DNA of 59,314 bases, taken from Candidatus Cloacimonadota bacterium. GTDB taxonomy: Bacteria > Cloacimonadota > Cloacimonadia > Cloacimonadales > TCS61. Below the pieces are notes generated by a model. That model was given only the letters and a program-made list of their open reading frames with translations, ran no database searches and had not been told where the DNA came from. The position numbers were made by a program, and so were the translations under genes. The DNA lies in NCBI GenBank assembly GCA_018645365.1, contig JABGOP010000007.1, positions 1 to 59,314 of the forward strand, in the 5' to 3' direction. Position 1 is the stretch's first letter; each line of letters starts with the position of its first letter. Positions 8,986-52,294 of the stretch are shown one piece after another.

Positions 8986-11418
8986 TTATTTTAAAAGAAT
9001 CATTTTTTTGGTTGAAATTGGAATTCCATCAACCACGAGTTTATAGAAATAGATGCCAGATGCTTGATCTTTTGCATTCCAAATTACTTGATTAACGCCT
9101 AATTCGTAATTCGCAATTTCTAATTGTTTCACAAGTTGACCTTTGATGTTGAAAATTTCAATCCCTGCGTTCCCTGTATTTTCTGCATTAAGAGAAAAAT
9201 TTATCATCGTTTCGTCACTAAATGGATTTGGATAATTTTTGCCAAGATGGTTTCCGCCACTCTGAATTTCAGTTTCATCTGACGCAACCGTTTCAGTAGC
9301 TATTATCCCTTCGATACAGAAATTAAAATCGTATGCAGTAGATGGAAGTTCTATCCAACCACTCGTTTTGATGAACATCCCCTTTCCTTCCACACGCGGT
9401 CCAGCATCGTGATATGCTGCTGGTGTTCCAACTGGAACTTCAATGCGATAACCAACAAAATATTCATTATCCGCATCAATTATAGCAAAATTATCGAATG
9501 TTATTGTAACCCATTCACCATCCACAAAATCGAAAACTTCCTCTTCTGAAATGAGGATATTTTCGTGCCAAACCTGAGCGAATAATTGACCTGTTTCAGC
9601 ATCGAATGGAGCAATAAATTTTACCTTTGAAATGGCTTCACCATCATAATTTGCAATATCTTCACCAAATAATTTGATGCCACAACTCATTGAACCGAGC
9701 ATTTGGAATTGTCCAACTGGTTCACCTGCAAAAGTAACATTATGATTATATGGATAATGTGTTAAATTGAGTGTCATATTTTGAGTTCCAGCGCTTACGG
9801 TGTAGTCTGTAAATGCAAAATAATTACCATCTAAACTTGCAACCGCAAAATAATCACCTGGTAAGATCCCAACCATTTCAACAGATCCACTCGCATCTGC
9901 TACACCAGATGTAACCAAGTGTTCATCTTGGTAAACAGCAACGCTACAACCTGTGGGATTAATTGGAGCAGAAATTTCTGCAGTTAGATATTCATAACTA
10001 TCCATAAAAAAGAAAATATTTGTGTTATTCTCATCTAACCAAACAAGCTGATTTGCATATTCAAAACCACCGTTATCCATCTCTATTATCGCGGTACAAT
10101 CGTACCAACCTGCTACAACCCAATCGAATAAAAACTGACCATTACCATCGGGTGTGCATTCATAATAACGCGGACCATCTAAAGTTATCGACGCATCAGT
10201 AGCATCTGCACCAGCAGTAATAACCTGTCCACCAGCAGTAAATGGTTCGAAACCACCTTCGATATTGATTACAGCTTGTGTGATTGTATCAAAGCCTGAC
10301 GGCATTCCGTTTGGAAGAGAATACCAACCGTCTGCACTGCCACCCCACCCCATATTAAGGTGATAAGTATCGTCATTTGAATTGTAGCCATCCACAATAA
10401 TTGCGTGGCCATAAGGTGAGCCACTTTCAATAATACCGAGAAATACAGGTTGTGCATTCTGCATATTGCTCTTTAAATTATTGTAAAAAGTTGCATTTAT
10501 ATTGTTTACAAAATTTGCAGAATCAAATCCAAATTTACCAAGAAGTGCATCGTCAACATCCATTGTCATCGCACCAGATCCTTCTTCCGAGTACGCCATT
10601 TTAACCGAGACACCAGCTGCAAAATTGAGTGCAGCCATATCATCATTAGTCAAAGTTTCCCAATTTGACAAATGTTCTGTCATCTCTGGCAAATAACTAT
10701 TCAATTCTGGGAATGTTGGAAAATCACGTGTAGCAGCGTGATTATCGATGTGAATCATCGGCGAAGTTTCGGTTGACCAATAATCGTCGGCATCGCTAAA
10801 AGTTGGATTTCCAGCAAAATGGTGATATTGCATAATCATCGACATCGCAGTTGCCACACAACCCGTTACCGAACGACCGTTTGTACCTGGGTCAATTGGG
10901 CAAAATGCATTCCACGGTGCACTTTGATTCCACTGAACCTCTACCCAACCCGCGGTTGCACTATAGCCTTCTGGTGGCCAAGTTTCATCACGCGTTTGAA
11001 AAGCTGCAAAATCTTCATTTTGATACTTTTCCCAAGTTTCGCTGTTGTTTGCTTTCAATTCTGCTGATGTTTGTGGAAGTGCTTCCCATCTCAATTTCAT
11101 ATCAGCTTTTAACATTTGAAAGCCGTTATTAAATTGAACATCTTCGGTTGAATAATTATTTCCAAAAGAATAAGAAATAACCGGTGCAATTTCTGTATCA
11201 GCAGAAACTACCACAAAACCTTGCGGTGCTAAATGGAAAATATACGCTAAAATTTTTCCATCATTTTCCAATGTGAAAACACTCTCGATCGAGTTATCTT
11301 CACCCTCAATTTGAATCTTCATTACGACTACTTTTTCGGCAGAATTAACATCTACAAAATCTGCAAAAAGAAGTGTACTCACGAAGATTGCTAATAAAAC
11401 TAATAGTACTTTTTTCAT
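8986..11418 (-). CDS. C10-family (streptopain-like) cysteine peptidase with T9SS sorting domain
   Basis: An 810-aa secreted protease. It has a signal peptide (MKKVLLVLLAIFVSTLLFA), then a Spi-type propeptide/inhibitor region (about residues 20-115; GFVVVSADTEIAPVISYS is typical), then a C10 catalytic domain. The catalytic Cys is C187 in GRSVTGCVATAMSMIMQYH and the His is H338 in GHAIIVDGY; the following GWGGSADGWY is the conserved Trp/Gly segment. Residues ~400-700 hold beta-sandwich modules, and the last ~80 residues (YPNPF, IEIFNIKGQLVKQL, ASGIYFYKLVVDG, KKMILLK) are a type A T9SS sorting domain. An AAGGAtg sequence lies about 9 nt upstream of the ATG. It is likely an extracellular protein-degrading enzyme, fitting an amino-acid fermenter. 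Confidence 0.92.
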   Translation of the reverse strand: MKKVLLVLLAIFVSTLLFADFVDVNSAEKVVVMKIQIEGEDNSIESVFTLENDGKILAYIFHLAPQGFVVVSADTEIAPVISYSFGNNYSTEDVQFNNGFQMLKADMKLRWEALPQTSAELKANNSETWEKYQNEDFAAFQTRDETWPPEGYSATAGWVEVQWNQSAPWNAFCPIDPGTNGRSVTGCVATAMSMIMQYHHFAGNPTFSDADDYWSTETSPMIHIDNHAATRDFPTFPELNSYLPEMTEHLSNWETLTNDDMAALNFAAGVSVKMAYSEEGSGAMTMDVDDALLGKFGFDSANFVNNINATFYNNLKSNMQNAQPVFLGIIESGSPYGHAIIVDGYNSNDDTYHLNMGWGGSADGWYSLPNGMPSGFDTITQAVINIEGGFEPFTAGGQVITAGADATDASITLDGPRYYECTPDGNGQFLFDWVVAGWYDCTAIIEMDNGGFEYANQLVWLDENNTNIFFFMDSYEYLTAEISAPINPTGCSVAVYQDEHLVTSGVADASGSVEMVGILPGDYFAVASLDGNYFAFTDYTVSAGTQNMTLNLTHYPYNHNVTFAGEPVGQFQMLGSMSCGIKLFGEDIANYDGEAISKVKFIAPFDAETGQLFAQVWHENILISEEEVFDFVDGEWVTITFDNFAIIDADNEYFVGYRIEVPVGTPAAYHDAGPRVEGKGMFIKTSGWIELPSTAYDFNFCIEGIIATETVASDETEIQSGGNHLGKNYPNPFSDETMINFSLNAENTGNAGIEIFNIKGQLVKQLEIANYELGVNQVIWNAKDQASGIYFYKLVVDGIPISTKKMILLK

Positions 11419-38276: not shown

Positions 38277-41200
38277 ATGAAAAATTTAATCCCATATTTA
38301 ATTCACGAAAATTATCAAAAAAATATTTTTGCAGGTATAATTAATGCAGATGTAATGTTTGTCGATATTTCCGGTTTTTCTGCGATGACCCAAAAGTTGA
38401 TGCAAAATGGCGATGAAGGTGCTGAAATTCTTTCCGAAATTATCAATAAAATTTTTACGCCAGCTATCGAAGAAATTTACGCCCAAAATGGATTTATCTC
38501 CACATTTGCAGGTGACGCTTTTACCGCAATTTTCCCAACCGCAAACACACAAACAAACTCAGTTTTAGCAGCAGCAAGCATGATTCAAAATAAATTCGAA
38601 ATAAATTGTGAACAAAGCACAAAATTTGGAAACTATTGTTTGCAAGCAAAAATCGGCATTTCAAGTGGCGATGTAAATTGGAAAATTTTGCCATCTGATG
38701 TGATTACTGGCTATTATTTTAGAGGCAAAGCTATCCAACAAGCCGCGATTTGTGAAACACACTGCGAAGTTGAGGAAATTTTGATTACTCCAGATATTAT
38801 CCACAAATTCGATCGTTGTGAATTCCAAAAAAGTGGCAATTATTTTTCTCTCAAAAAAAATGTGAAATTGACGAAACATCCGATTAAAAAGCAAGAACTC
38901 ACAGATACAGAGTTACAACCTTTCATTCTAAATGCCATCCTAAACTTAAACTCAAGCGGTGAATTTCGCAATGTTGTTTCGTGTTTCATCGCCTTTAAAA
39001 TTTCAGAAAATATGGACGCTAAAATCATCGATATTGAAAACTTGATTTTCCAATACGGTGGTTATTTGAACAAAATAGATTTCGGCGATAAAGGTGCAAT
39101 GATGTTAGTTCTTTTTGGCGCACCAATTGCAAAAAGTAAAATTTATCACCGAGCTTTTGAATTTGCACTCGCCGTAAATAATCTCCAAAATTTCCAAACT
39201 AAAATTGGAATGACTTATTACACCGCATTTACTGGATTTGTCGGTAGCAATTTACGAGGTGAATATACAGCTTTAGGGTTATCAGTAAATTTAGCGGCAC
39301 GCTTTATGACTCATGCAAATTGGGACACCGTTCTCGTCGACCGCTACCTCTATCGCGAAAATAATAAAGCTTATCAAATTGATTTTTATGACGAAACGCT
39401 TTTCAAAGGATTCGAGTTTAAAATTCCATCTTACAGATTAGTTAAAAAAAAATATACTCTAAATGAAACAAGATTTAGCGGAAAATTCATCAATCGCCGC
39501 CAAGAATTAAAATTATTAAATAATTGTTTGAATAAAATAAAATCAAACAAATTTGGTGGAATCGTTTACATAAATGGACCTGCTGGAGTAGGAAAAAGCA
39601 GGTTAGTTTTTGAATTTGAACAATCGCTTCCGAAAATTGATTTTAACTGGTTTCATCTGCCTTGCGACGAAATCTTGAACAAAGATTTTTATCCCATTAT
39701 TCAATTTTTAAAAATCTATTTTAATCAATCCGAAAATTTACCAAAAAATAACTTAAAAAAAGAATTTAATGATAAAATTGAGTGGCTGCATCAACAATTA
39801 GAAAATAAGGTTTTGGCAACTGAATTACTCCGCACAAAATCATTTATTGCCGCATTATTAGACATTTCATGGACAAATTCACTCCACTCAAAATTAGATA
39901 AAAAAAGCAAATTCCAATCAACTTTATTAGCACTCAAAAATTTAATTCTGTGTGTTGCGTCGCGTAAACCACTCATTCTCGAAATCGAAGATTGCCACAA
40001 CATTGATGTTGCCACAAAAATTTGGTTAAAAACCCTAGTTCAGGGTGTGGAAAATTTCCCCTTCCTCATCATTTCTACTTATCGACATTCTTCTAATAAC
40101 ATTGAATTTGATTGTGGAATAAACAACATTGAAACTTTGCAAATTCACCTTACAAATTTAACAAAATCAGATTCTGCTCAACTCATAAAATCAAAGTTAA
40201 ACACAAAAGTTATTCCTTCAAACACAACATCTTTAATTTTTGAAAAAAGTCGTGGCAATCCTTTTTTTGTTGAACAATTAGTTCAATTTTTGACAGAAAA
40301 AAAACAGTTGGACCACAGCTGTAACCTTGTTTCAAATGACATTGCTATCCCAGAAAATATCAAAGAACTCATTATTGTCCACATCGATAAATTACAACCA
40401 CAATCAAAAGAAATCGTCAAAATTGCATCTGTTATTGGCAACCTTTTTTCGAAAGATATTCTCTTTGAAGTATTGCATAAAATGGAATTATCAAATCCTG
40501 AAATCTTTGAACAAACTAAAAATATTTGGCATAAAATCTCTAAAATGCAGTATCTTTTCAATAATGCGATGATTCGTGAGTCTATTTATGCAATGCAATT
40601 GAAAAAAAGGGTACGCGAAATTCACATCCTCAACGCAAAAGCAATAGAAAATCTTCGCAAAAATAATCTACAAAATTTTTATCCTGATTTGGCTTATAAT
40701 TATGAAAAAGGTGAAGATTGGGAAAATACCGTTAAGTTTTTAGAATTAGCAGCAAACCATTCAAAAAAAATGTATTATAATGATTCTGCGATTTTACATT
40801 ACAATAACTTGCTTAAATATTTCAGAAATGAACCAGAATTTTATCAGAAATTCATTCTCGATAAATTAGAAATTTTACTACTTATTGGTAAATCGCAAGA
40901 GGTAGTAAAAGAGTTGAATATTCTGGAAAAAGTAGAATTTATCCAAACCGAATCCAAAGATAAATTCCATCTTCTTTTTGGACAATACTACATCCAAACC
41001 GAACAATATGCAGAGCTTGCAAAATATGTTGATAAGCACATTGATTCTATAAATTCTGAATTCCACAAACAGTCTATTTTAATTTATCATTTGAATGCAT
41101 TACGCTATTTAAATCGACAAAATGATTTCGAAATATTAGCAGAAAAACTCCTCAAAAACATAAAAAATAATTTTGAATTAAAAGCAAAATTACACAACAC

Positions 41201-42062
41201 CATCGGCATCTATCAAGCTCAAAAAGCAGATCACAAATTAGCAATTGTTTCATACAAAAATTCGCTAAAAAATGCTGAATTCGCTAACAGTAACATTCTG
41301 CTTCAAAAAGCATTTCACAGTATTGGTATCGCACATTTCCGATTAGGTGAACGCAAATTAGCAAAAGTTTTTTATCAAAAAGCGGCTAAAATTGCCAAAA
41401 AAATTGGCGACCAAAATGCAAATTGTAAAATCTTAACCGATTTAGCTTCAGCTAACACAATTGACGGCAACCACAATGATGCAATTAAACAATATTTACG
41501 AGCACTTCGTTTGGCAAAAAGTAGCGATAACAAAAAACAACAAGGTCTTATTTTTTACAATTTAGCATTAAGTTATGAACATAAAGCAGAAAGAGATACG
41601 GCTATTTCATACTTGGATAAAGCTAAAATTGTTTTCAATAATATCTCATTTTTAGTCGGCATTACTTACGCAAACGACCTTTACGGTGATATTTTGTTTG
41701 CACTAAAAAATTATGGAAAAGCAAAAATTATCTACCATGAAAATATCGTAATTCAGAAAAAAATAAAAGATAAAGAGGGAATTGCTCACACTTTAGGGAA
41801 TTTAGGCAATGTCGCAAAAATTGAAAAAGATTACGGTAATGCTGAAAAATACTACCAAAAACAGCAACAAATTCTCGTCAAAGTAGGTGATGCCGAAGGT
41901 GAAGGAAAAGCGTGGTTCAATTGGGCGATGATTGAATGGGAACAAAAGAATATTTCGGAAACTAAAATTAAATTAAAAAAAGCAATTCAACTTTTCGAAA
42001 AATGTTCCTTCAAAATGGGGGCAGATTTAGCAAAACAACAACTTAAAAAAATTACTAATTAG
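38277..42062 (+). CDS. Tandem class III cyclase / AAA-type ATPase / TPR protein (soluble adenylyl cyclase-like)
   Basis: 1261 aa, cytoplasmic. Cyclase domain 1 (~24-180) holds the two metal aspartates, Asp30 (FVDISGFS) and Asp80 (FAGDAFTAIF). Cyclase domain 2 (~230-355) lacks them but has Lys266, Thr331 (EYTALG) and Asn338/Arg342 (VNLAAR), the purine-selecting and transition-state residues, so the two domains can build one active site. An ATPase domain follows, with Walker A GPAGVGKS (434-441) and Walker B-like LILEIEDCHN, then a long run of TPR repeats to the end. Domain order and complementary site match mammalian ADCY10, predicting cAMP synthesis. It starts in the base after the upstream stop, and its last 4 nt overlap the convergent polA end. 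No Shine-Dalgarno is clear; coupling to the upstream gene is likely. Confidence 0.87.
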   Translation: MKNLIPYLIHENYQKNIFAGIINADVMFVDISGFSAMTQKLMQNGDEGAEILSEIINKIFTPAIEEIYAQNGFISTFAGDAFTAIFPTANTQTNSVLAAASMIQNKFEINCEQSTKFGNYCLQAKIGISSGDVNWKILPSDVITGYYFRGKAIQQAAICETHCEVEEILITPDIIHKFDRCEFQKSGNYFSLKKNVKLTKHPIKKQELTDTELQPFILNAILNLNSSGEFRNVVSCFIAFKISENMDAKIIDIENLIFQYGGYLNKIDFGDKGAMMLVLFGAPIAKSKIYHRAFEFALAVNNLQNFQTKIGMTYYTAFTGFVGSNLRGEYTALGLSVNLAARFMTHANWDTVLVDRYLYRENNKAYQIDFYDETLFKGFEFKIPSYRLVKKKYTLNETRFSGKFINRRQELKLLNNCLNKIKSNKFGGIVYINGPAGVGKSRLVFEFEQSLPKIDFNWFHLPCDEILNKDFYPIIQFLKIYFNQSENLPKNNLKKEFNDKIEWLHQQLENKVLATELLRTKSFIAALLDISWTNSLHSKLDKKSKFQSTLLALKNLILCVASRKPLILEIEDCHNIDVATKIWLKTLVQGVENFPFLIISTYRHSSNNIEFDCGINNIETLQIHLTNLTKSDSAQLIKSKLNTKVIPSNTTSLIFEKSRGNPFFVEQLVQFLTEKKQLDHSCNLVSNDIAIPENIKELIIVHIDKLQPQSKEIVKIASVIGNLFSKDILFEVLHKMELSNPEIFEQTKNIWHKISKMQYLFNNAMIRESIYAMQLKKRVREIHILNAKAIENLRKNNLQNFYPDLAYNYEKGEDWENTVKFLELAANHSKKMYYNDSAILHYNNLLKYFRNEPEFYQKFILDKLEILLLIGKSQEVVKELNILEKVEFIQTESKDKFHLLFGQYYIQTEQYAELAKYVDKHIDSINSEFHKQSILIYHLNALRYLNRQNDFEILAEKLLKNIKNNFELKAKLHNTIGIYQAQKADHKLAIVSYKNSLKNAEFANSNILLQKAFHSIGIAHFRLGERKLAKVFYQKAAKIAKKIGDQNANCKILTDLASANTIDGNHNDAIKQYLRALRLAKSSDNKKQQGLIFYNLALSYEHKAERDTAISYLDKAKIVFNNISFLVGITYANDLYGDILFALKNYGKAKIIYHENIVIQKKIKDKEGIAHTLGNLGNVAKIEKDYGNAEKYYQKQQQILVKVGDAEGEGKAWFNWAMIEWEQKNISETKIKLKKAIQLFEKCSFKMGADLAKQQLKKITN

Positions 42063-44785
42063 TGTGCCTCAAACCAGTTTTTCCCAACTCCAACATCCAC
42101 TTTTAGATGGATAATATTTGCAAATTCCACGGGTAATGCCTGTTCCATTTCGTCAATAATTATTTTTTCCGCAAATTCCAGTTTATCTTTTTTTATCTCA
42201 AAAACCAATTCATCGTGCACTTGAATTATCATTTTTATCTCATCATTGTTCTTAAATTTTTCGGTTAAATTTATCATCGCAATTTTAATAATATCCGCGG
42301 CAGAACCTTGAATGGGCATATTGGTCGCTACTCTTTCCGCACCTTTTGCCACCATTTTATTTGAACTATTAATTTCCGGCAAAAATAATTTTCTCCCAAA
42401 AACAGTGGAAACATATCCTTCTTTTTGGGCTTTTTCGATGCCATCGTTCAAATATTTTTTTATGGTTGGAAATTTTTCAAAATAATTTGAAATAAATTCT
42501 TTCGCTTCTTTTCGCGAAATATTCAGCTCTTTCGAAATTCGAAAACTCCCCATTCCATACATCAGTCCAAAATTGATAATCTTTGCATAACGCCGCTGTT
42601 CAGATGAAACTTCATCTTTGGCAATATTGTAAATTATGGTTGCCGTTTCACGATGAATATCATGATTATTCTGAAAAGCATTAAGCATTTTTTCATCACC
42701 CGAAAGCATTGCTAAAATGCGTAATTCTATCTGCGAATAATCGGCAGCTAAAATCACATATTCCTCATTTTTCGCACAAAATGATTTGCGGATTTCACGC
42801 CCCATTGAAGTGCGAATTGGAATATTTTGCAAATTTGGATTCGATGAAGACAACCTTCCCGTCGAGGTTACCGTTTGGTTAAAAGAGGAGTGAATGCGGT
42901 TTGTTTTTGCATTGATTAAATTTGGCAAAGCCGAAACATAAGTAGATTCCAGTTTTGAAATCTGGCGATATTCAATCAGTAATTTAGCAATATCATGATC
43001 TTTTGCCAAAATCTCCAAAACTTCATAATTGGTCGAATAACCCGTTTTTGTTTTTTTGATTGGCGAAATGTTTAGATCTTCAAAAAGTACTTTTGCAAGT
43101 TGTTTGGGTGAATTTAAATTGAATTGAATTCCAGCCAATTCGTAAATCTCTTTCGTTAAAACACCAATTCTTTTTTGGTTATTTTTAGAAATTTCTGCCA
43201 AAATTTTTCTATCAATAAAAACACCACTGTGCTCCATTTTTGCAAGTGTGAAAATAAGCGGAATCTCAATATTTTCAAAAAGCGGTTTTAAATTATTTTT
43301 AGCAATTTTTTTTACATACTTTTGATAGATTTTAAAAATGTAAAAAGCTCTTTCACCACCATATGTTGCTGCTTGCTCTGGTGGAACTAAATCAAAGTCA
43401 ACTTGCTTTTTACCACTCCCAATCAAATCAGATAACTGGGCAATGCCAACACCGAATTCCTCTGTAACGCAACTACTTAACGCATGACTTGCGTTTGGAT
43501 TAATGAGGTAATGAGCTACCATTGTGTCGAAAATATTGTCAAAATTTTCCCAACCATACTCCCGTAAAACAAGATATATCAATTTGAAATTATGACCAAT
43601 TATTAATTTTCGAGAAAGAGCCATCTCCAGTTTTGGCAAAATATTTTGTAATTCTAAATTTTGTGCCATTTGGTGGCTAAATGGGAGATAATATGATTTA
43701 TCACAAAAAAGTGCAATTCCAATCAATTTATCATATTGTAAGTCATTAATTTGAACATCAACCGAAATACTTTTGTGTTGATTTATTTCAGTAAGTAAAT
43801 TCGTGAATTTTGCGTCACTATCCACTAAAATAACATCATTTTTTTCTTCTGTTTTTGTAAAATCAAATATATTTTCTTCGAAATTAAATTCATTTTTATA
43901 CTCCAAAATATCCTTAGAGATAGATGTTTGTGCTGTTATTTTTTCAATTTTTGTTATTATCGACCTCAAATTAAAATTCCGTAAAAATTCAATCCCATTT
44001 TTTAAACTATTTTTCTCAAATTTGAAATCGCAAACTTGTAATGGCACATCACGAATAATCGTGACCAATTTTTGTGAAAGATAGGCATTTTTTTTATGTT
44101 CAATTAATTTTTCTTTCAATTTTTCGGGAACGATTTTTTCAATATTTTCGTAAATTTCATCTAAATTTCCAAATTGACCCAAAAGCTTCGTGGCACCTTT
44201 TGGACCTATTCCCTTCACGCCGGGAATATTATCAGCAGAATCACCACAAATCGCCAAATAATCGATAAATTGAGTTGGCAAAATCCCATATTTTTCTTTC
44301 ACTTTTTGCACATCAGTAGCTTTGTTTGACTTCGGATCAAAAAGGGAAATTTGTTCATTCACGAGTTGAGTAAAATCTTTATCGCCCGAAACAATAACCA
44401 CTTCATATTTATTTTGATAATTATCGGCGAGCGTTGCTATTACATCATCTGCTTCAAACCCAGCTTTTGAAATATCATTCAATCCAATTTTTTGGAAAAA
44501 TTCTTTTATCGGTTCAACTTGTTGGCGTAATTCATCTGGTGTTGGCGGTCGATTTGCTTTATAAGTATCCGTAATTTGATGCCTAAATGTTTTCTCTCTT
44601 CGATCGAATGAAATGGCTATATTGGATGGGTTGAATTGTTCGATTAATTTCAAAAGAGAGTTTATCGTGCCAAAGATGGCACTTACATTTTGCCCTTTAT
44701 TATCATAAAGCGGATTGCGAATAAATGCAAAAAAAGCTCGATAAATAAGTGCAGTTCCATCAATTATGTATAATTTTTCTTTCAT
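42059..44785 (-). CDS. polA: DNA polymerase I, proofreading domain apparently inactive
   Basis: 908 aa, full length. Residues 1-~290 are the 5'-3' exonuclease (GFEADDVIATLA, VSGDKDFTQLV, GDSADNIPGVKGIGPKGA). Residues ~315-490 are the 3'-5' exonuclease fold, and ~500-908 the polymerase with motifs A (DYSQIELRIL), B (RRYAKIINFGLMYG) and C (QVHDELVFEI). Compared with E. coli, the exonuclease metal ligands are lost: DxE is DVQ (343-345), the Asp of motif II is Ile403, and that of motif III is Arg479; only Asp343 remains. It should act in Okazaki fragment processing and repair without proofreading. A TTGACA box on this strand lies 55 nt upstream of the start. It converges with the cyclase gene with a 4-nt overlap and no terminator. 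Confidence 0.96.
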   Translation of the reverse strand: MKEKLYIIDGTALIYRAFFAFIRNPLYDNKGQNVSAIFGTINSLLKLIEQFNPSNIAISFDRREKTFRHQITDTYKANRPPTPDELRQQVEPIKEFFQKIGLNDISKAGFEADDVIATLADNYQNKYEVVIVSGDKDFTQLVNEQISLFDPKSNKATDVQKVKEKYGILPTQFIDYLAICGDSADNIPGVKGIGPKGATKLLGQFGNLDEIYENIEKIVPEKLKEKLIEHKKNAYLSQKLVTIIRDVPLQVCDFKFEKNSLKNGIEFLRNFNLRSIITKIEKITAQTSISKDILEYKNEFNFEENIFDFTKTEEKNDVILVDSDAKFTNLLTEINQHKSISVDVQINDLQYDKLIGIALFCDKSYYLPFSHQMAQNLELQNILPKLEMALSRKLIIGHNFKLIYLVLREYGWENFDNIFDTMVAHYLINPNASHALSSCVTEEFGVGIAQLSDLIGSGKKQVDFDLVPPEQAATYGGERAFYIFKIYQKYVKKIAKNNLKPLFENIEIPLIFTLAKMEHSGVFIDRKILAEISKNNQKRIGVLTKEIYELAGIQFNLNSPKQLAKVLFEDLNISPIKKTKTGYSTNYEVLEILAKDHDIAKLLIEYRQISKLESTYVSALPNLINAKTNRIHSSFNQTVTSTGRLSSSNPNLQNIPIRTSMGREIRKSFCAKNEEYVILAADYSQIELRILAMLSGDEKMLNAFQNNHDIHRETATIIYNIAKDEVSSEQRRYAKIINFGLMYGMGSFRISKELNISRKEAKEFISNYFEKFPTIKKYLNDGIEKAQKEGYVSTVFGRKLFLPEINSSNKMVAKGAERVATNMPIQGSAADIIKIAMINLTEKFKNNDEIKMIIQVHDELVFEIKKDKLEFAEKIIIDEMEQALPVEFANIIHLKVDVGVGKNWFEAH

Positions 44786-44900: not shown

Positions 44901-46124
44901 ATGAAAAAAGTGTTAATTTTAACTTATTATTTCCCACCAAGCGGAGGAGCTGGCGTCCAACGATGGCTCAAGTTTGCTAAATATCTACCAGAATTTGGTT
45001 GGCAACCAACAATCATCACTACAAAAGATGGAGATTACCCAATTATCGACAATTCTCTTTTAGATGAAATACCGCAAAACATCAAAATTATTCGAACGAA
45101 AACACCGTCTATTTATAACATTTATGCTAAGTTTATGAAAAACGGTGAGAAAGTTCCTTACGGCTCGATGCAAATTTTAAAAAACGATAGCATTTTCAAG
45201 AAACTTTCTCTTTATATTCGCAAAAACTTCATCATTCCAGATGCACGAAAAGTATGGAATAAACATGCGTTTTTAGCGGCAAAAAAAGAATTATTGATAA
45301 GAAAATACGATGCTGTTATTACGACTGGTCCACCCCACTCTACTCATTTAATCGGATTAAAATTAAAAACAAAATTTGGTGTGAAATGGATTACAGATTT
45401 TCGCGACCCTTGGACAAAGATTGATTATTTGCAAGATGTAAAAAGATGGTGGTGCACCACCTATTTTGACAAAAAAATGGAACAAATTGTTATCGCAAAA
45501 TGCGATAAATTAATTTCAATAAACAACGCTATTATCACTGATTTTGGAGTTACAAAAAAATCAATCCGCATCACAAATGGATTTGACAGCACCGATTTTG
45601 AAATAACAAAAAAACCATCCAAAAAATTTACGATAAATTATTTTGGCAATATCATAAAAACAAGAAATCCGATGCCAATTTATAAAGCTCTAAAAAAAAT
45701 AAACCTAAATGTCGAGCTTAATTTTTATGGTAATATCGATGAAAACTTAATGGCTGAAAACTGCAAAAATCACCCATATTTGCCACATACGGAGATGTTA
45801 GATAAAATGATTAACTCAAATTTACTTTTACTCATTATCAATAAAACTTCTGGTAACGAAGGAATCATCACCGGTAAAATATTTGAATATCTCGCCGCAA
45901 ATGTACCAATTGTTGGTATTGGCCCTAATGATGGTGAAGCTGCCAAAATTTTAACAGAAACTGATGGTGGTAAAATGTTTGATTATCATCAAATTGATGA
46001 AATCTCAAAATACATAGAATTACAGTATGAACACTGGGAAAATAACAAAATTCATAACACTAAATGTGAAAAATATTCGCGTAGAAATCTAACAAAACTG
46101 CTAGCAAATTTTTTGGATAAATAA
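44901..46124 (+). CDS. Family 4-type glycosyltransferase
   Basis: 407 aa from ATG 44901, chosen because MKKVLILTYYFPPSGGAGVQ is the usual opening of this group; a TTG at 44865 is the only longer choice and neither has a strong Shine-Dalgarno. The GT-B fold is suggested by the Gly-rich N-terminal loop (FPPSGGAGVQRWLKFAKYL), WITDFRDPWTK and the C-terminal nucleotide-sugar region (GKIFEYLAANVPIVGIGP, with the Glu typical of the ExxxxG/A motif). It likely transfers a sugar from a nucleotide donor for surface polysaccharide or glycolipid synthesis; donor and acceptor are unknown. It stands alone, closed by a bidirectional terminator 1 nt after its stop. Confidence 0.85.
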   Translation: MKKVLILTYYFPPSGGAGVQRWLKFAKYLPEFGWQPTIITTKDGDYPIIDNSLLDEIPQNIKIIRTKTPSIYNIYAKFMKNGEKVPYGSMQILKNDSIFKKLSLYIRKNFIIPDARKVWNKHAFLAAKKELLIRKYDAVITTGPPHSTHLIGLKLKTKFGVKWITDFRDPWTKIDYLQDVKRWWCTTYFDKKMEQIVIAKCDKLISINNAIITDFGVTKKSIRITNGFDSTDFEITKKPSKKFTINYFGNIIKTRNPMPIYKALKKINLNVELNFYGNIDENLMAENCKNHPYLPHTEMLDKMINSNLLLLIINKTSGNEGIITGKIFEYLAANVPIVGIGPNDGEAAKILTETDGGKMFDYHQIDEISKYIELQYEHWENNKIHNTKCEKYSRRNLTKLLANFLDK

Positions 46125-46153
46125 AAAAGAGCGGTGATTTTCACCGCTCTTTT
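46125..46153. terminator. Bidirectional terminator between convergent genes
   Basis: Perfect 13-bp stem AAAAGAGCGGTGA / TCACCGCTCTTTT with loop TTT. T-runs lie on both strands, so it serves the glycosyltransferase (plus) and the four-gene membrane operon (minus, last stop at 46167). Confidence 0.95.
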
Positions 46154-46166
46154 TCTTCATAAACTA

Positions 46167-46769
46167 CTATTTAATTAGCCCTAACCAATCTCCCAATAAA
46201 AACTGAATTCTACCAATTAGAAGGGAAATACGAGCCATCACGGTGTAACCAAAAGATGCACCAAAACCAACCATCATATACCAAATACCAATGTTAGTGA
46301 TTTTCCCGTAAACTCCTTTGTGTGCTTTCGAAAAGAAGAAATACATCAAAATAGTTACCGTTCCGATAAACACAATTACTCCATTGAGACTATCGATTGG
46401 CAACATCGCAGTACGCATTTGTACTAAAACTGATGAGTTCATCGACATCGGCACACCCATTCCGACAATACCCATTCCAAACGCAATTGGATAACGCGAA
46501 AGCCAACTAAGATTTTTGGAAAATCGGAAAATGTATAAAATTCCCATTAAAGCTGGAATAATGAGAATGAATTTGTGTTCCAAAAAAATGGGGCGATAGA
46601 CAAATGGGATAAACGCGTTTTTATAAACAAGCGGAAGTGCATAACCCATCGAAACACCAACTAATAAATGCTCTGCAAATCTATACACAGGATTTTCTTT
46701 GTACAAAAATGAGAAAATTGCCAAAGTAAAAAGTGCCGCAACTGTATTACTTATCATTTCAAATGTCAT
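46167..46769 (-). CDS. Uncharacterised multi-span membrane protein, last gene of a four-gene operon
   Basis: 200 aa with about six hydrophobic segments (around residues 7-22, 33-52, 66-84, 94-112, 128-146, 160-185). Short polar loops include KENPVYRFAEHLLVGVSMGY near the start. I recognise no family. The start overlaps the end of the preceding gene by 4 nt (ATGA), so it is translationally coupled. A strong terminator follows 14 nt after its stop. Together with the three upstream genes it probably forms an inner-membrane complex; this is inferred from overlap and shared membrane character only. Confidence 0.85.
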   Translation of the reverse strand: MTFEMISNTVAALFTLAIFSFLYKENPVYRFAEHLLVGVSMGYALPLVYKNAFIPFVYRPIFLEHKFILIIPALMGILYIFRFSKNLSWLSRYPIAFGMGIVGMGVPMSMNSSVLVQMRTAMLPIDSLNGVIVFIGTVTILMYFFFSKAHKGVYGKITNIGIWYMMVGFGASFGYTVMARISLLIGRIQFLLGDWLGLIK

Positions 46770-47710
46770 TTTTTGCCTCCTTTTTTACGATTTGCAAAAT
46801 AACCAATATTTCCGAGTAAAATAAAGATGATAATCATCAAATGTGCTACTGTTTGAGCATTCATTCCAATGCGTGCTTTCTTGAATTTATACGGAATTTT
46901 ATCTCCATAAATTGGATGATCGCCAGTAATAGGAACTATCTCTTCTTTGATGATTTCTTTACTAAATTCTCTTTGCTGAGTGGCAAAAACATCAACTAAT
47001 TTTTCGTATTCAGCGGCACCTTTGATACCTGCTAACATACCAATAAGCTGTCCACTTTGCAAGTATGGATAGTTGTCAGCCGCCATCACAGCTGTAACAC
47101 CAGCCGCAACATTTGCACCAAATTTAGCACGCGCATAAGTTACCCACGAAAACACACTGGATGAAGCAGAAAAATCAATGACGAGGTTCAAATCATCATA
47201 GTTTTTGATACCTTCAATAATAGGAAGATTTTCTAGTTTTCTACCTTCCGAATCTATCTCTACCGCTTCCGCAATATTTTCTCCCATTCCGAGAAGAATA
47301 GGTAGAAAAAGACTGTACGGCTTGTAACCGAAGTTACAATAATTCACACCTGCTTTAATGTTTGGAAAATCCTCTTTCGCAGTGTTGATAGCATAATCTA
47401 CAAGAGGGGCTGTATCTGGCATAAAGCAAAGAGTAAACACTTTTACATCGCGTTCAAAACAATGGCGTAAAACAGCCACTTCCATTGGAAATAATTCTGC
47501 CAGAGTAGATGCATTATGTGAAAAATTCATCAAAATAGCTTTGTTCGGTTTGCCAGCAAAAGAATCAATCATTTGATAAACATCTTCTGTTGGTTTTGTT
47601 GTATCAATTCGGCTATTAAATGGAATTAATAACGGAATAATAATCGATAGAGCTACAATAATGTAGATATATCTTCTGTCAAGTGATTGTATTTTTGCAA
47701 AAATTTTCAT
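46766..47710 (-). CDS. Uncharacterised protein with membrane anchors at both ends and a Rossmann-like middle
   Basis: 314 aa. One hydrophobic helix near the N-terminus (~14-31; YIYIIVALSIIIPLLIPF) and one near the C-terminus (~288-306; VAHLMIIIFILLGNIGYF) bracket a soluble region of ~250 residues. That region shows alternating strands and helices (KAILMNFSHN, VKVFTLCFMPDTAPLVDYA, LNLVIDFSASSSVFSWVTYA, GANVAAGVTAVMAADNYPYL) suggestive of a Rossmann-like alpha/beta fold, probably outside the cytoplasm if the first helix is a signal anchor. There is no nucleotide-binding or catalytic motif. It overlaps the upstream gene by 1 nt (TAATG) and the downstream gene by 4 nt. Family unknown to me. Confidence 0.85.
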   Translation of the reverse strand: MKIFAKIQSLDRRYIYIIVALSIIIPLLIPFNSRIDTTKPTEDVYQMIDSFAGKPNKAILMNFSHNASTLAELFPMEVAVLRHCFERDVKVFTLCFMPDTAPLVDYAINTAKEDFPNIKAGVNYCNFGYKPYSLFLPILLGMGENIAEAVEIDSEGRKLENLPIIEGIKNYDDLNLVIDFSASSSVFSWVTYARAKFGANVAAGVTAVMAADNYPYLQSGQLIGMLAGIKGAAEYEKLVDVFATQQREFSKEIIKEEIVPITGDHPIYGDKIPYKFKKARIGMNAQTVAHLMIIIFILLGNIGYFANRKKGGKK

Positions 47711-48333
47711 TAATCACCTCCACCTAAATAAGTTCTTTCAATACCAAGCAAAATTTTCAAGGAAACTGCTGTCATACCGAGTCCAACGCCTGTCATAATG
47801 CCTCTTTTCGCAGCAAGATTTGGCACATTCAAAATCCAAGTTGCTGTTTCAGGAATCCATTTGGAAATCATTGCACCAATCGGTACCTGTCCGAGCATCA
47901 CAATAATGCCAGCAACAAGTAAAACTGTTGCTTCTGGTGAACGCGCTCTAAATGCCTTATATGCCGCCGAAGAGATGTAGAATGCCAAAAGAGAAAACAT
48001 CGTTGCACTCATCGGCAATTGCACATTTTTAAACAACCACATAAATGGAGTTCCTTCATTTGTGCCCCACATAAAACCAGCAAATGCGGTAAAAACTAAT
48101 GCTACCAAAGTAACTAAACTGTACTGCCAATTTGGTGCTTTTCTGGTAACTTTCGTACCATGAACCATCCACAAACTCATCACACCGAGTGCGACTGCAA
48201 AAGGTGAAATTGCTTTTGTCCAACTGATAAACCAATCGTAAAAATCGATGGAATATTTATGTGGAATAAATGTATGTCCCACAAATAAGAATCCCAAGAT
48301 TATTACAATCATTAAAGGAATTTGTCTTTTCAT
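47710..48333 (-). CDS. Uncharacterised six-helix membrane protein
   Basis: 207 aa with hydrophobic segments at about 5-22, 40-57, 70-90, 104-122, 134-155 and 175-197. A conserved-looking loop WGTNEGTPFMWLFKNVQLPM and a polar turn AFRARSPEA between helices suggest specific contacts. It starts 8 nt after the 884-aa gene, with AGGAGG directly before the ATG, and its stop shares one base with the next start. No known transporter signature. Confidence 0.85.
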   Translation of the reverse strand: MKRQIPLMIVIILGFLFVGHTFIPHKYSIDFYDWFISWTKAISPFAVALGVMSLWMVHGTKVTRKAPNWQYSLVTLVALVFTAFAGFMWGTNEGTPFMWLFKNVQLPMSATMFSLLAFYISSAAYKAFRARSPEATVLLVAGIIVMLGQVPIGAMISKWIPETATWILNVPNLAAKRGIMTGVGLGMTAVSLKILLGIERTYLGGGD

Positions 48334-48341
48334 CTATCCTC

Positions 48342-50996
48342 CTATTTTTCCGGCAATGCATTTATAAAGAAAGTCAAATGCAATGTGGAAAGTAAAGTTC
48401 CCGCTACAACGGAAATAATAATAATAAGTTTAAAATAATCAACTGCTTTCAATGTACCCATTTGAAGCGGATTTCTCGCCAAATATGCACTTGCTGCATA
48501 AAGTTCTTCACCAATTAAAGTATAATCGCAAGTCGTAATAAAGAATGGTAATTGCGTGATAGCATCGGTTCCAGCAATCTGAATAGCACCAGTTGCAGCA
48601 CCTGTTTCTGCCATAATCAAAGCTTCCGCGAAGAACATTCCCATAAAGAAGTTAGTCGCCACTTTTTCACGAATCATAATTCCGTTTATACCAGCCACAT
48701 ACGCAAATTGAGAAGTAGTTATGAAAAATACGCTATTTTTATCGTAAGTATCTGGTCGACCAGCTTCGTAATGAGCTTCTTTCACAACCTCTTGTGCAAT
48801 TGGGAGCACGAGTGGAACACCAATTGGCACGAGTATTTTTGTGTCGTATTCTGCCGCTTTTTTGGCAACTCTACCCAAAATAGCCAATGAAGCAAGCGTT
48901 GCTACATCAGAAATTCCGGTAAAACCTGGCACAAACAAAATCGGCTTACCCATTTCGGTTGCTCTACCTATGGCATTGTCTATCTCTTCAATTCCAGCAA
49001 TTGGACGTACATAAAAATCGTGTCCAGTTTTTGCTTTCAAGATTAACATGAAAACTAACAATCCAAAAATGAGACCAGCAATAAGAGCTGGAAGCATGGT
49101 TCTTTTCACCCAATTTGGTTTTGGAAAAAAATATTTTACGCCTTCATTTTCGTAAACTAATGATTCAACGAAGTGCCCTTCTCCATCTGTAACAACCATT
49201 TTGTATTGGTAAGATCTTTTCGCAAAATGGCGTGCTTTATCATACCTTTTTACCTCTTTTTTATTGAGTTTAAAAAGATTTACAACTAGACTCGAATCAC
49301 CTTCAAAATCATAAGTTTCAAAAGACGGAGCCACATAAATCAACTTTTTGTCAGCGTCAAAAATCTTCGGAACTTTGTAATGGTCTTTTTCGTATTTGAT
49401 TTTATCATCATACTCGCGTTGCAAACCTGAAAGTTTTTTGGTAATTTCAAATTCATCATCCAGATAATTCTTCTTGTAAACTGCATAACTGAACTTTTCC
49501 AAATCGCCATCATTCACGAAAGCGGTAGCTGGTTTCAACGATTTAGTCGTCTCATTATAAACCAGTTGTTGTTGAATTTCGTAGTTTTCATAACCTTCTA
49601 AAATTATTTTGAAATTTATCTTTTTCAAATTTTCGGGAATTTCTACCAAAATTTTATTGTCGATAAAAAATTCATTAATCGTTTGAATAATTTCGCCATT
49701 TTCGTCCGAAACTTCAAAATGAATATTTTTCATTTTTTTAGAAGAATTTGTGTAAGTTTCGTAAGCTACCAAAAGTTTTGTTTTCGTTTGATTTTGATAA
49801 GTAGAACCAACTAATTTAACGGCTGGATCTCCCCAAAAAATTGTATTATAATCGCCCTTATCGTCAATTCTGTCCACCACTTTGAAAGCTGGAATTATCG
49901 GCAAAACATCAGAATTGCAATGTTCAACTTCGAAAACATCAGAATAGGTCTCTTGGTTATGGTAATCCACAAACGAATAGAGGAAATAATAGTCGTCTAA
50001 TTCATTTGCATTTATTTTTGTATCAATTCCAAAATCTTCGTCAAAAATTATACCATTTGCAATGTCGATTATAGCATAATTTTCTGTATCAGAATTAGGA
50101 ACTGTTGTCATTTTCACAAAAAGCAATTCTGCGGAATTTTCATCTTCCCCATTTTCAACTGCTTTTTGGAATTTACTTAAATCTTTTTTTCGTAATTTGT
50201 ATATACAAAAATAAGCAAGGTCGCTACTTTTCTGTGGATTTGTCCACTCAAAATTAAGCTGTTTCAAATCTTCTACAAAAACAGGATAAAGTTTTTTTGG
50301 TTTTTCGGGAGCATCGTTAAACGCTTTTCCAGAAACAATTTTTGCTTGTGGAAAATAACGACGTGCCTCATTCACTGCCACCACTGTGTAAAAATATTCC
50401 TTTTTTGGAATCAATTTCTTCAAAAGAGTTGAGAAATTACGCAATTTCAAACCGGAATAATTGGTTGTATCTGCCGCTGTCGTATCATTTTCAACAATGT
50501 GTTCAACTTTTTCTTTTTTGTAATAAAAATCTTTTTCGGGAATTATCGAAAGAATCGTATAATTCTCTAATTCTGGACCTAAAACATTGATGTCCCTCGG
50601 AATACCTTGAAAAAGAACACCATCTTTAGATTGCCCTTTTTCCCTCTTTAATTTCGATGGTGAAGTTAAGTCGGCAAAGAAATTCCAATCCTTGTCAAAA
50701 TAACTCATCGTCGCACTGGAAACTCCAGTTTTTACATTCACATCGATTCGACCGATGTAGAAAAGAGTATCTGTCGTAACACCACGATAAATGCGATATT
50801 CGATAATTCTCTTCTCTTTTGGAAGCGGTTCCCAAGTTAGTTTCAATCCAGTTCCATCGTCATACTTCACATCTTCAACCGATAAATCTTGAACGATAAA
50901 TTCAGCTTCATCAATTGCTGCGTGAGTGGTAATTGGGAACAAGAAAAAAACCAACAAAAACAGGATTAATCCCGTCTTTAAAAAGGTAAACTTCAT
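48342..50996 (-). CDS. Large membrane-anchored protein with FN3-like ectodomain and DUF6754-like C-terminal domain
   Basis: 884 aa from ATG 50996 (AAAGGAG upstream; a longer frame from 51074 has no ribosome site). It has a signal peptide (residues 1-~26), then fibronectin-III-like modules (LKLTWEPLPKEKRIIEYRIYR ~50-70; LNFEWTNPQKSSDLAYFCIY ~250) and a long beta-rich region to ~625. A transmembrane helix (~634-654; LPALIAGLIFGLLVFMLILKA) leads to a conserved ~190-residue domain (GIEEIDNAIGRATEMGKPIL, FVPGFTGISDVATLAS, AETGAATGAIQIAGTDAI), which I recall as DUF6754, and a last helix (~845-866). The topology predicts the conserved domain is cytoplasmic. First gene of the four-gene operon. Role unknown. 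Confidence 0.85.
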   Translation of the reverse strand: MKFTFLKTGLILFLLVFFLFPITTHAAIDEAEFIVQDLSVEDVKYDDGTGLKLTWEPLPKEKRIIEYRIYRGVTTDTLFYIGRIDVNVKTGVSSATMSYFDKDWNFFADLTSPSKLKREKGQSKDGVLFQGIPRDINVLGPELENYTILSIIPEKDFYYKKEKVEHIVENDTTAADTTNYSGLKLRNFSTLLKKLIPKKEYFYTVVAVNEARRYFPQAKIVSGKAFNDAPEKPKKLYPVFVEDLKQLNFEWTNPQKSSDLAYFCIYKLRKKDLSKFQKAVENGEDENSAELLFVKMTTVPNSDTENYAIIDIANGIIFDEDFGIDTKINANELDDYYFLYSFVDYHNQETYSDVFEVEHCNSDVLPIIPAFKVVDRIDDKGDYNTIFWGDPAVKLVGSTYQNQTKTKLLVAYETYTNSSKKMKNIHFEVSDENGEIIQTINEFFIDNKILVEIPENLKKINFKIILEGYENYEIQQQLVYNETTKSLKPATAFVNDGDLEKFSYAVYKKNYLDDEFEITKKLSGLQREYDDKIKYEKDHYKVPKIFDADKKLIYVAPSFETYDFEGDSSLVVNLFKLNKKEVKRYDKARHFAKRSYQYKMVVTDGEGHFVESLVYENEGVKYFFPKPNWVKRTMLPALIAGLIFGLLVFMLILKAKTGHDFYVRPIAGIEEIDNAIGRATEMGKPILFVPGFTGISDVATLASLAILGRVAKKAAEYDTKILVPIGVPLVLPIAQEVVKEAHYEAGRPDTYDKNSVFFITTSQFAYVAGINGIMIREKVATNFFMGMFFAEALIMAETGAATGAIQIAGTDAITQLPFFITTCDYTLIGEELYAASAYLARNPLQMGTLKAVDYFKLIIIISVVAGTLLSTLHLTFFINALPEK

Positions 50997-51068: not shown

Positions 51069-51074
51069 TGTCAA
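51069..51074 (-). promoter_or_regulatory. TTGACA box upstream of the four-gene membrane operon
   Basis: TTGACA on the minus strand, 78 nt before the 50996 start and overlapping nothing but the 84-nt spacer after the M23 gene. It suggests the four genes have their own promoter. The -10 at normal spacing (GTTTTT) is poor. Confidence 0.3.
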
Positions 51075-51079
51075 TAAAT

Positions 51080-52294
51080 TTACTCTTTCAACATCATTTT
51101 CAAACTATCTGCAACCAATTTAAACTTTTTAATTTCATTTTTGGGAATTGGTGGTCCCGAAACATTTTTCAGTTTCAACGGATTAATCGCCTTATCGTGA
51201 TGATAAATAGTATAATGCAAATGGTTACCAGTGGAAAGCCCTGTTGACCCAACATAACCTATTACATCGTGTTGACTTACGCGACTACCAACTTTATATT
51301 TCCCATATTTACTCAAATGCCCATAAAGAGTTTTATAGCCATTTGAATGCCGAATCATCACTGTTTTCCCGTAGCCACCTTTGCGTCCATTCACCGTTGG
51401 ATGACCGCCTTTCCAACCACAATGGATTACCGTTCCATCTGCAGCAGCTTCCACGGGTGTACCGTAGCTCGCCGCGTAATCCACGCCATTATGGAAAATA
51501 CTTTTTTTACGAATTGGATGGTAACGGCTGCCGAAAGTTGATGTTATGCGTTTGTAATTTAAAGGAGATTTCAAAAATGCTTTTTGGAAACATTTCCCAT
51601 TTTTATCGTAATATTTTTCAGTTCCGTCTTTTGTTTTGAAAAAATAGGCCGTTTCATCTATTTTTTTACTCTCGTAATTTGCGACTAATATTTTGCCGTA
51701 TTGCACAAATTTACCATTGGCATTTGTGTATTTTTCAAAAATAAGTTTAAACTTATCACCTTTTTGCGGATCGATGAAAAAATCAATATCCCATTGGAAG
51801 ATCTGAGTTAACATCATAATGAGAGCTGGTTTTTCGCCAGCATTTATCATTGCATTCCATAAAGATGAATTGATTTCACTTTCGCAAAAACTAATTTTTT
51901 TTGCTAATTGCAAAGTATCTATTTTGGTCGTAAAATTTCGGGCAGAATCGCGAAAAACCCAATATGTATAAATTTCGTTTGGCTGAAATGCAATCTCGAC
52001 AACTTCGTTTAAAGTATCTAATTTTACGAAATATTTATCGTTTGGTTGAGCGTACCGCAAACTGAATATTTCATCTAATTGATTAGCAAATTTATAGGCA
52101 GTTCCATTGGCTAAACCATCGTTTATTAATGCATTTGCCAAAGTTTCACCTTTTTCCAATTTGCCCGTTTTATAAGCAAACGAATCTTTCTCTTTTGCTA
52201 TTTTTTTAATTTTAGAAAAATTAATTTCAGTTTCATTTTTCACGCACGAAATAGTTACAAATAAAATTATCAAACATACGAATATTTTTCTCAC
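51080..52294 (-). CDS. M23-family peptidoglycan endopeptidase, lipoprotein
   Basis: 404 aa. A lipoprotein signal (MRKIFVCLIILFVTISC, lipobox around the Cys) precedes an OapA/LysM-like helical-beta region (~30-240, similar to the N-terminal part of MepM-type enzymes; GETLANALINDGLANGTAYKFA). The LytM/M23 catalytic domain (~245-385) has ITSTFGSRYHPI, the zinc motif HNGVDYAASYGTPV and GNHLHYTIYHH, which carries the HxH pair. It cleaves peptide cross-links in the cell wall, probably for growth or division. A TTGACA box lies 51 nt upstream. Inactive EnvC/NlpD-type regulators share the fold, but all zinc ligands appear present here, so activity is expected. Confidence 0.92.
   Translation of the reverse strand: MRKIFVCLIILFVTISCVKNETEINFSKIKKIAKEKDSFAYKTGKLEKGETLANALINDGLANGTAYKFANQLDEIFSLRYAQPNDKYFVKLDTLNEVVEIAFQPNEIYTYWVFRDSARNFTTKIDTLQLAKKISFCESEINSSLWNAMINAGEKPALIMMLTQIFQWDIDFFIDPQKGDKFKLIFEKYTNANGKFVQYGKILVANYESKKIDETAYFFKTKDGTEKYYDKNGKCFQKAFLKSPLNYKRITSTFGSRYHPIRKKSIFHNGVDYAASYGTPVEAAADGTVIHCGWKGGHPTVNGRKGGYGKTVMIRHSNGYKTLYGHLSKYGKYKVGSRVSQHDVIGYVGSTGLSTGNHLHYTIYHHDKAINPLKLKNVSGPPIPKNEIKKFKLVADSLKMMLKE

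Follow-up and report, generated by a model that had tools for sequence, protein, structure and literature searches.

What do four overlapping genes on the minus strand of a 59,314-nt contig from a Candidatus Cloacimonadota genome (hereafter the window) encode, and do their products work together? The first-pass annotation described an operon of uncharacterised membrane proteins, here named A to D (Table 1), with a TTGACA box in front and a strong terminator behind. Its spacings agree with the coordinates: A and B are separated by 8 nt, B and C share one nucleotide (TAATG), and C and D overlap by four (ATGA). Each of the four starts is preceded by a Shine-Dalgarno-like GGAGG or GGAG; a longer form of A beginning at a TTG codon (position 51074) is possible, being less likely than the ATG start. 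The hairpin downstream of D is indeed strong (-22.5 kcal/mol, z -7.9 relative to shuffled sequences) and is followed by a T run. The TTGACA hexamer is also present, but a promoter scan gave it no partner (-10) hexamer, and promoter-like sites were no more numerous than in shuffles, so this hexamer is not taken as evidence of a promoter. Elsewhere in the window (38277-44785), a gene for a cyclase-like/ATPase/TPR protein of 1261 aa and polA (908 aa) are convergent, their ends overlapping by 4 nt.

Table 1. Features of the A-B-C-D locus (positions in the window)
Feature	Position	Strand	Description
Gene A	48342..50996	-	884 aa; ATG at 50996; DUF6754 protein
Gene B	47710..48333	-	207 aa; polytopic membrane protein
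Gene C	46766..47710	-	314 aa; TM, predicted extracytoplasmic alpha/beta (Rossmann-like) domain, TM
Gene D	46167..46769	-	200 aa; polytopic membrane protein
Intrinsic terminator 3' of D	46117..46155 (approximate)	-	In the gap before a convergent glycosyltransferase gene
TTGACA hexamer upstream of A	51069..51074	-	Sequence match
M23 peptidase lipoprotein gene	51080..52294	-	Upstream of A, 83-nt gap; not a core part

Among the four products, A carries a catalogued domain. Its residues 626-879 match Pfam PF20539 (DUF6754), the family named in the first-pass annotation, with an E-value of 1e-114 and 382 bits relative to a curated cut-off of 27, covering profile positions 2-255 of 257. Pfam gives no function for this domain, and neither DUF6754 nor the four-gene system was found described in searchable papers; what is already catalogued is the domain alone, without function. 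Hydropathy supports the signal-peptide/FN3-like/TM architecture proposed for A, namely a signal or anchor segment, an extracytoplasmic arm of ~600 aa with an FN3-like start, a transmembrane (TM) segment at ~635-653, the DUF6754 domain, and a TM segment at ~857-875. Positive-inside reasoning would place the DUF6754 domain on the cytoplasmic side. For a short paralogue of A (see below), AlphaFold modelled the FN3 domain and the first half of the alpha/beta domain; the second half was modelled poorly, and the Foldseek comparison was therefore limited to the FN3 part, which matched FN3 domains in the PDB. The same part matched 3mpc in a profile search of solved structures (E 0.083), and this search with A found no other relative. 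The arm itself varies between lineages, being FN3-like in Cloacimonadota, built of HEAT repeats in one Deltaproteobacteria MAG, and absent in Bacillota and Chloroflexi. The large extracytoplasmic arm noted at first reading is real in the source genome, but it is not essential, since A does without it in these two groups.

The other three proteins belong to no Pfam or NCBIfam family, nor do the diverse members of B, C and D that were also scanned; B gave scattered weak Pfam matches, all below cut-off, and D none of note. Profile searches of solved structures with B, C and D found no relative either, in line with the first impression that the products match no known transporter, secretion system or enzyme. 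B and D are polytopic as proposed, but their count of six helices is plausible rather than confirmed, with five segments of B and four of D passing a strict hydropathy threshold. The view of C as a doubly anchored Rossmann-like protein is borne out by hydropathy and by an AlphaFold model (pLDDT 88.5), both giving a TM segment, an alpha/beta domain and a second TM segment. Positive-inside reasoning on the hydropathy profile suggests that this domain is extracytoplasmic. Foldseek returned weak alpha/beta matches for C (TM score at most 0.40) and no convincing solved fold. In Chloroflexi (L099, L137, L103), C is extended at its N-terminus by ~600-750 residues that include a zinc ribbon and precede the C domain. 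This extension is probably cytoplasmic, because it precedes the first TM segment of C and carries a zinc ribbon, and for these reasons the idea that in Chloroflexi C had taken over the large arm of A was rejected. Profile comparison also spoke against homology of B with D and against internal repeats; homology between the domains of A and C is not claimed, their profile comparison being weak (16% probability). Residues conserved in 90% or more of the 102 non-redundant cassettes include (i) E681, G786, E791, E797, D824, G829, E830, E831 and D853 of A; (ii) R126 (K in the source protein), R177, G186, G197 and R200 of B; (iii) Q221, G224, Y235 and E236 of C, where G121 is also listed as conserved; and (iv) N26, Q117, F144, G170 and R187 of D.

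Within the Cloacimonadota, DUF6754 is present in 122 of 125 genomes, usually in two or three copies, the source genome having one. Two paralogous cassettes occur, both in the order A-B-C-D: one with a long A (~900-1150 aa, as in the source genome) and one with a short A (~370 aa, one FN3 domain). In near-complete genomes that lack DUF6754, profile searches found B and D absent as well, the same profiles detecting both genes in each of nine genomes that were searched whole. Some Cloacimonadota families possess a second long A directly after D (A-B-C-D-A2; L037, L038, L040, L045, L047 and L051). In one family of the phylum only, L068 (A at 9106-10206) and ten loci like it have a gene for a putative lipoprotein of 265 aa directly upstream of the short A.

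The complex could also be pictured as an envelope-building or scaffold machine (cell wall, lipid or surface layer), which in Cloacimonadota would cross the periplasm with its FN3 arm and may work with the M23 endopeptidase. The near-universal presence of the cassette in Cloacimonadota, the long arm in several lineages, the M23 gene upstream in parts of the phylum and the Beta-lactamase2-family neighbours in some Bacillota fit this scheme. However, the M23 gene lies upstream of A in only part of the Cloacimonadota, and none was seen beside the short-A paralogue or in other phyla. For this reason the partnership with the M23 lipoprotein that the first-pass annotation had suggested is weak. The missing arm in Bacillota and Chloroflexi is a further difficulty, and up to 15 divergent copies per genome (see below) would ill suit a cell-wall machine. 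We consider the envelope-building role improbable.

The distribution beyond this phylum was surveyed by scanning 84,980 species genomes with a degenerate DNA pattern for GEE[LF][FY]AAGA, a motif that we took to be that of Anaerolineae proteins and that mostly missed the Cloacimonadota's own AAS-bearing members; matches were afterwards confirmed with profiles built from Cloacimonadota, and codon-scored gene calls were used at GC-rich loci. At least 119 loci were found, at least 103 of them encoding A. Among the matches listed, the A-bearing MAGs are labelled as Chloroflexi/Anaerolineae, Elusimicrobia, Bacillota, Poribacteria, Zipacnadia, Armatimonadetes, WOR-3, Eisenbacteria, Bdellovibrionales, Deltaproteobacteria, Planctomycetota, Gemmatimonadetes, Hydrothermota, Muiribacterium and others, these labels being the records' own and single MAGs possibly being misbinned. 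One MAG labelled Bathyarchaeota (G127; L077, L207, L208, L209) has seven DUF6754 copies; contamination or misbinning is likely, and those of its cassettes placed in a tree nest among Bacillota cassettes. Tandem arrangements were also observed, with three A-B-C-D cassettes head to tail in L102 (1-8000, cut at both ends), three in one 15-kb stretch of L255 (4109-19026) and two in L221. A search of viral contigs and plasmids found no relative.

Several lines of evidence indicate that the four genes behave as one unit across these phyla. B, C and D follow A in order at all 16 loci with at least 5.5 kb of downstream sequence, and 164 complete cassettes were extracted, including those from Chloroflexi, Elusimicrobia, Bacillota, WOR-3, Eisenbacteria, Poribacteria and Bdellovibrionales. 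The very divergent Chloroflexi genes belong to the same four families (99.8-99.9% in profile comparison). Distance matrices of A, B, C and D from the 102 non-redundant cassettes correlate at 0.69-0.74 for all six gene pairs, a level reached in 0 of 200 permutations. When nine whole genomes were searched with the B, C and D profiles alone, all matches fell within cassettes except for two C-D cases, a remnant in G167 and a pair at a contig edge in G169; in these genomes the three genes are hardly ever found away from A. The former pair (G167:C1:1198909-1199804), in a Bacillota genome consisting of one contig, has neither A nor B beside it and is probably a decaying cassette. Given the conserved order, the complete cassettes, the correlated divergence and the shared absence, A, B, C and D very probably form a single complex of the inner membrane, its genes being passed on together, as the tight coupling of the genes had suggested at the outset.

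A second unit, to which the first-pass annotation made no reference, recurs beside the cassette outside Cloacimonadota. It comprises a small protein S (80-126 aa), an ATPase of ~600-640 aa from the ASKHA-type MutL/GlmL family (PF13941, E 1e-123), and a barrel-sandwich/SH3-like protein of ~370 aa. This unit adjoins the cassette in at least eight lineages (Chloroflexi, Zipacnadia, Armatimonadetes, Bdellovibrionales, Elusimicrobia, Muiribacterium, a Planctomycetota MAG and CSMAG_2321) and in more than one arrangement: S-ATPase-barrel-A-B-C-D in Zipacnadia and CSMAG_2321, S-A-B-C-D-ATPase-barrel in Chloroflexi, and A-B-C-D-ATPase-barrel in Bdellovibrionales and Muiribacterium, the latter with a small intervening ORF. 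The source genome has S-ATPase-barrel on a separate contig, C23 (L271:5966-9348, minus strand), and other Cloacimonadota carry the unit as well. All 25 cassette-bearing genomes examined, the source genome included, contain PF13941, and in 14 control genomes no match exceeded the cut-off. Two near-complete genomes lacking A, B and D retain PF13941, so the ATPase unit does not strictly depend on the cassette; it is a frequent, not an obligate, partner. Its repeated adjacency in these lineages makes it likely that the membrane complex cooperates with it.

Since GlmL accompanies glutamate mutase, the partner ATPase raises the question of whether the cassette could anchor adenosylcobalamin mutases at the membrane or reactivate them. 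With 414 bits (cut-off 27), the ATPase is a member of PF13941, and it scores with GlmL models, but its 210.5 bits in the GlmL NCBIfam equivalog model stay far below the cut-off of 475. It is also longer than GlmL (~460 aa) and is linked to a barrel-sandwich protein and a membrane cassette instead of mutase subunits. By sequence, therefore, the ATPase is not GlmL proper. No B12 mutase gene was noticed beside the cassettes, and a mutase-related role is hardly to be expected. The third member of the unit might point elsewhere, to an ion-translocating, energy-coupling complex distantly like RNF/NQR in which the barrel-sandwich protein would replace RnfC/NqrA. The source-genome protein has weak, sub-threshold similarity to RnfC_N, whose curated cut-off it narrowly misses (E 6e-5), and to NQRA_N (E 6e-4), and two polytopic plus peripheral subunits would suit such a complex. 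Yet barrel-sandwich folds occur widely, the partner is an ASKHA ATPase and not an oxidoreductase, no Fe-S, flavin or heme domains were found, and the membrane subunits of the cassette are unrelated in sequence to those of RNF/NQR. This possibility is highly unlikely.

In Bacillota the cassette occurs in a multi-copy, hydrolase-linked form that likewise had no place in the first reading. In the order of a Fermentithermobacillaceae member, all 17 genomes encode DUF6754, with 1-15 copies each; some Bacillota have 5-15 cassettes, the 15 being reached in a genome of 1.5 Mb. Of 69 cassette runs at the Bacillota loci, 64 comprise the whole of A-B-C-D, the others being partial, mostly at region ends. 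In the tree, Bacillota cassettes fall into sub-clades, each with members from several genomes, a pattern that would be expected if the paralogues are specialised. We further compared the close neighbours of these cassettes, defined as co-directional genes within 150 nt that encode at least 120 aa, and 10 of 14 proved to be Beta-lactamase2, amidohydrolase, M24, M20 or creatininase proteins; the same query set recovered 17 of 338 other genes at the same loci. It should be noted that the hydrolase query families were drawn from the neighbours themselves, which inflates the P-value, and for this reason the excess of amide/peptide hydrolases beside Bacillota cassettes is regarded as suggestive. Catabolic regulators of the RpiR and IclR families also adjoin Bacillota cassettes. 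For example, the L219 cassette lies among genes for a hydantoin racemase, a D-aminoacylase-type amidohydrolase, an aminotransferase, DUF3830, a gamma-glutamyltransferase and a 2-oxoacid:ferredoxin oxidoreductase. A 433-aa protein without a Pfam match, possibly a regulator, and its relatives are also encoded beside Bacillota cassettes (L241:3778-5079, L218:2-1039 and L231).

Since these paralogues are found with regulators and with hydrolases of amide-containing compounds, as importers are, solute import is the best single candidate for the role of the complex. From its gene neighborhoods, the complex may be a new multi-subunit inner-membrane transporter, and our tentative explanation as a whole is that A-D import amino-acid- or peptide-like solutes, which would probably be the class of substrate, in coupling with the ATPase unit. 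B and D would form the membrane core and the solute path; A would hold its conserved acidic alpha/beta domain (DUF6754) at the cytoplasmic face and connect inside to the S-ATPase-barrel unit; C would hold its alpha/beta domain at the outer face, where it, together with the FN3 arm of A in some lineages, would contact the solute or the envelope. Two polytopic subunits, an outer-face subunit and paralogues beside catabolic enzymes would make this arrangement work like the multi-subunit ABC and TRAP importers. It differs from them in having no recognized solute-binding protein in the cassette and no sequence relation: A-D and the partner unit have no nucleotide-binding ABC subunit, B and D have no similarity to ABC permeases above cut-off, and there are no DctP, DctQ or DctM homologues among the Pfam matches of the cassette. 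That the cassette represents a new class of multi-subunit transporter, widespread in uncultured phyla, with alpha/beta domains on both membrane faces and with a GlmL-like ASKHA ATPase, rather than an ABC ATPase, to drive or control it, is a more doubtful proposal.

Against the transport reading, B, C and D show no homology to any transporter and no solved relative, and many cassettes stand alone with no catabolic neighbor. No hydrolase link was seen for the Cloacimonadota, Elusimicrobia and Chloroflexi cassettes, and near-universality with one to three copies would rather suggest housekeeping; in Cloacimonadota, this low-copy near-universality counts against a purely nutritional one. A different scheme would be a transmembrane sensing or signaling complex, in which C, with the FN3 arm, senses a ligand or the state of the envelope outside and A relays it to the ATPase unit. 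Alpha/beta domains on both membrane faces would serve such a relay, and the variable arms of A (FN3, HEAT repeats or none), the variable extension that carries the zinc ribbon in Chloroflexi C, itself probably cytoplasmic, and the recurrent 433-aa neighbor agree with it. However, the cassette has no kinase, cyclase, GGDEF or receiver domain, two polytopic subunits exceed the needs of a sensor, and the hydrolase neighbors suit supply better, so we regard sensing as rather unlikely.

None of the features tested matches the system to a transporter, a secretion system or a redox complex already known, its apparent newness resting on the lack of homology. The cassette is near-universal in one phylum and conserved over many, and no characterised relatives of its proteins are known. 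The second unit and the hydrolase-linked copies provide concrete handles on its function. If the complex is not a transporter, it would still be a conserved core envelope machine; if it is one, it would represent a new class and would change the predicted diet of these mostly uncultured fermenters.
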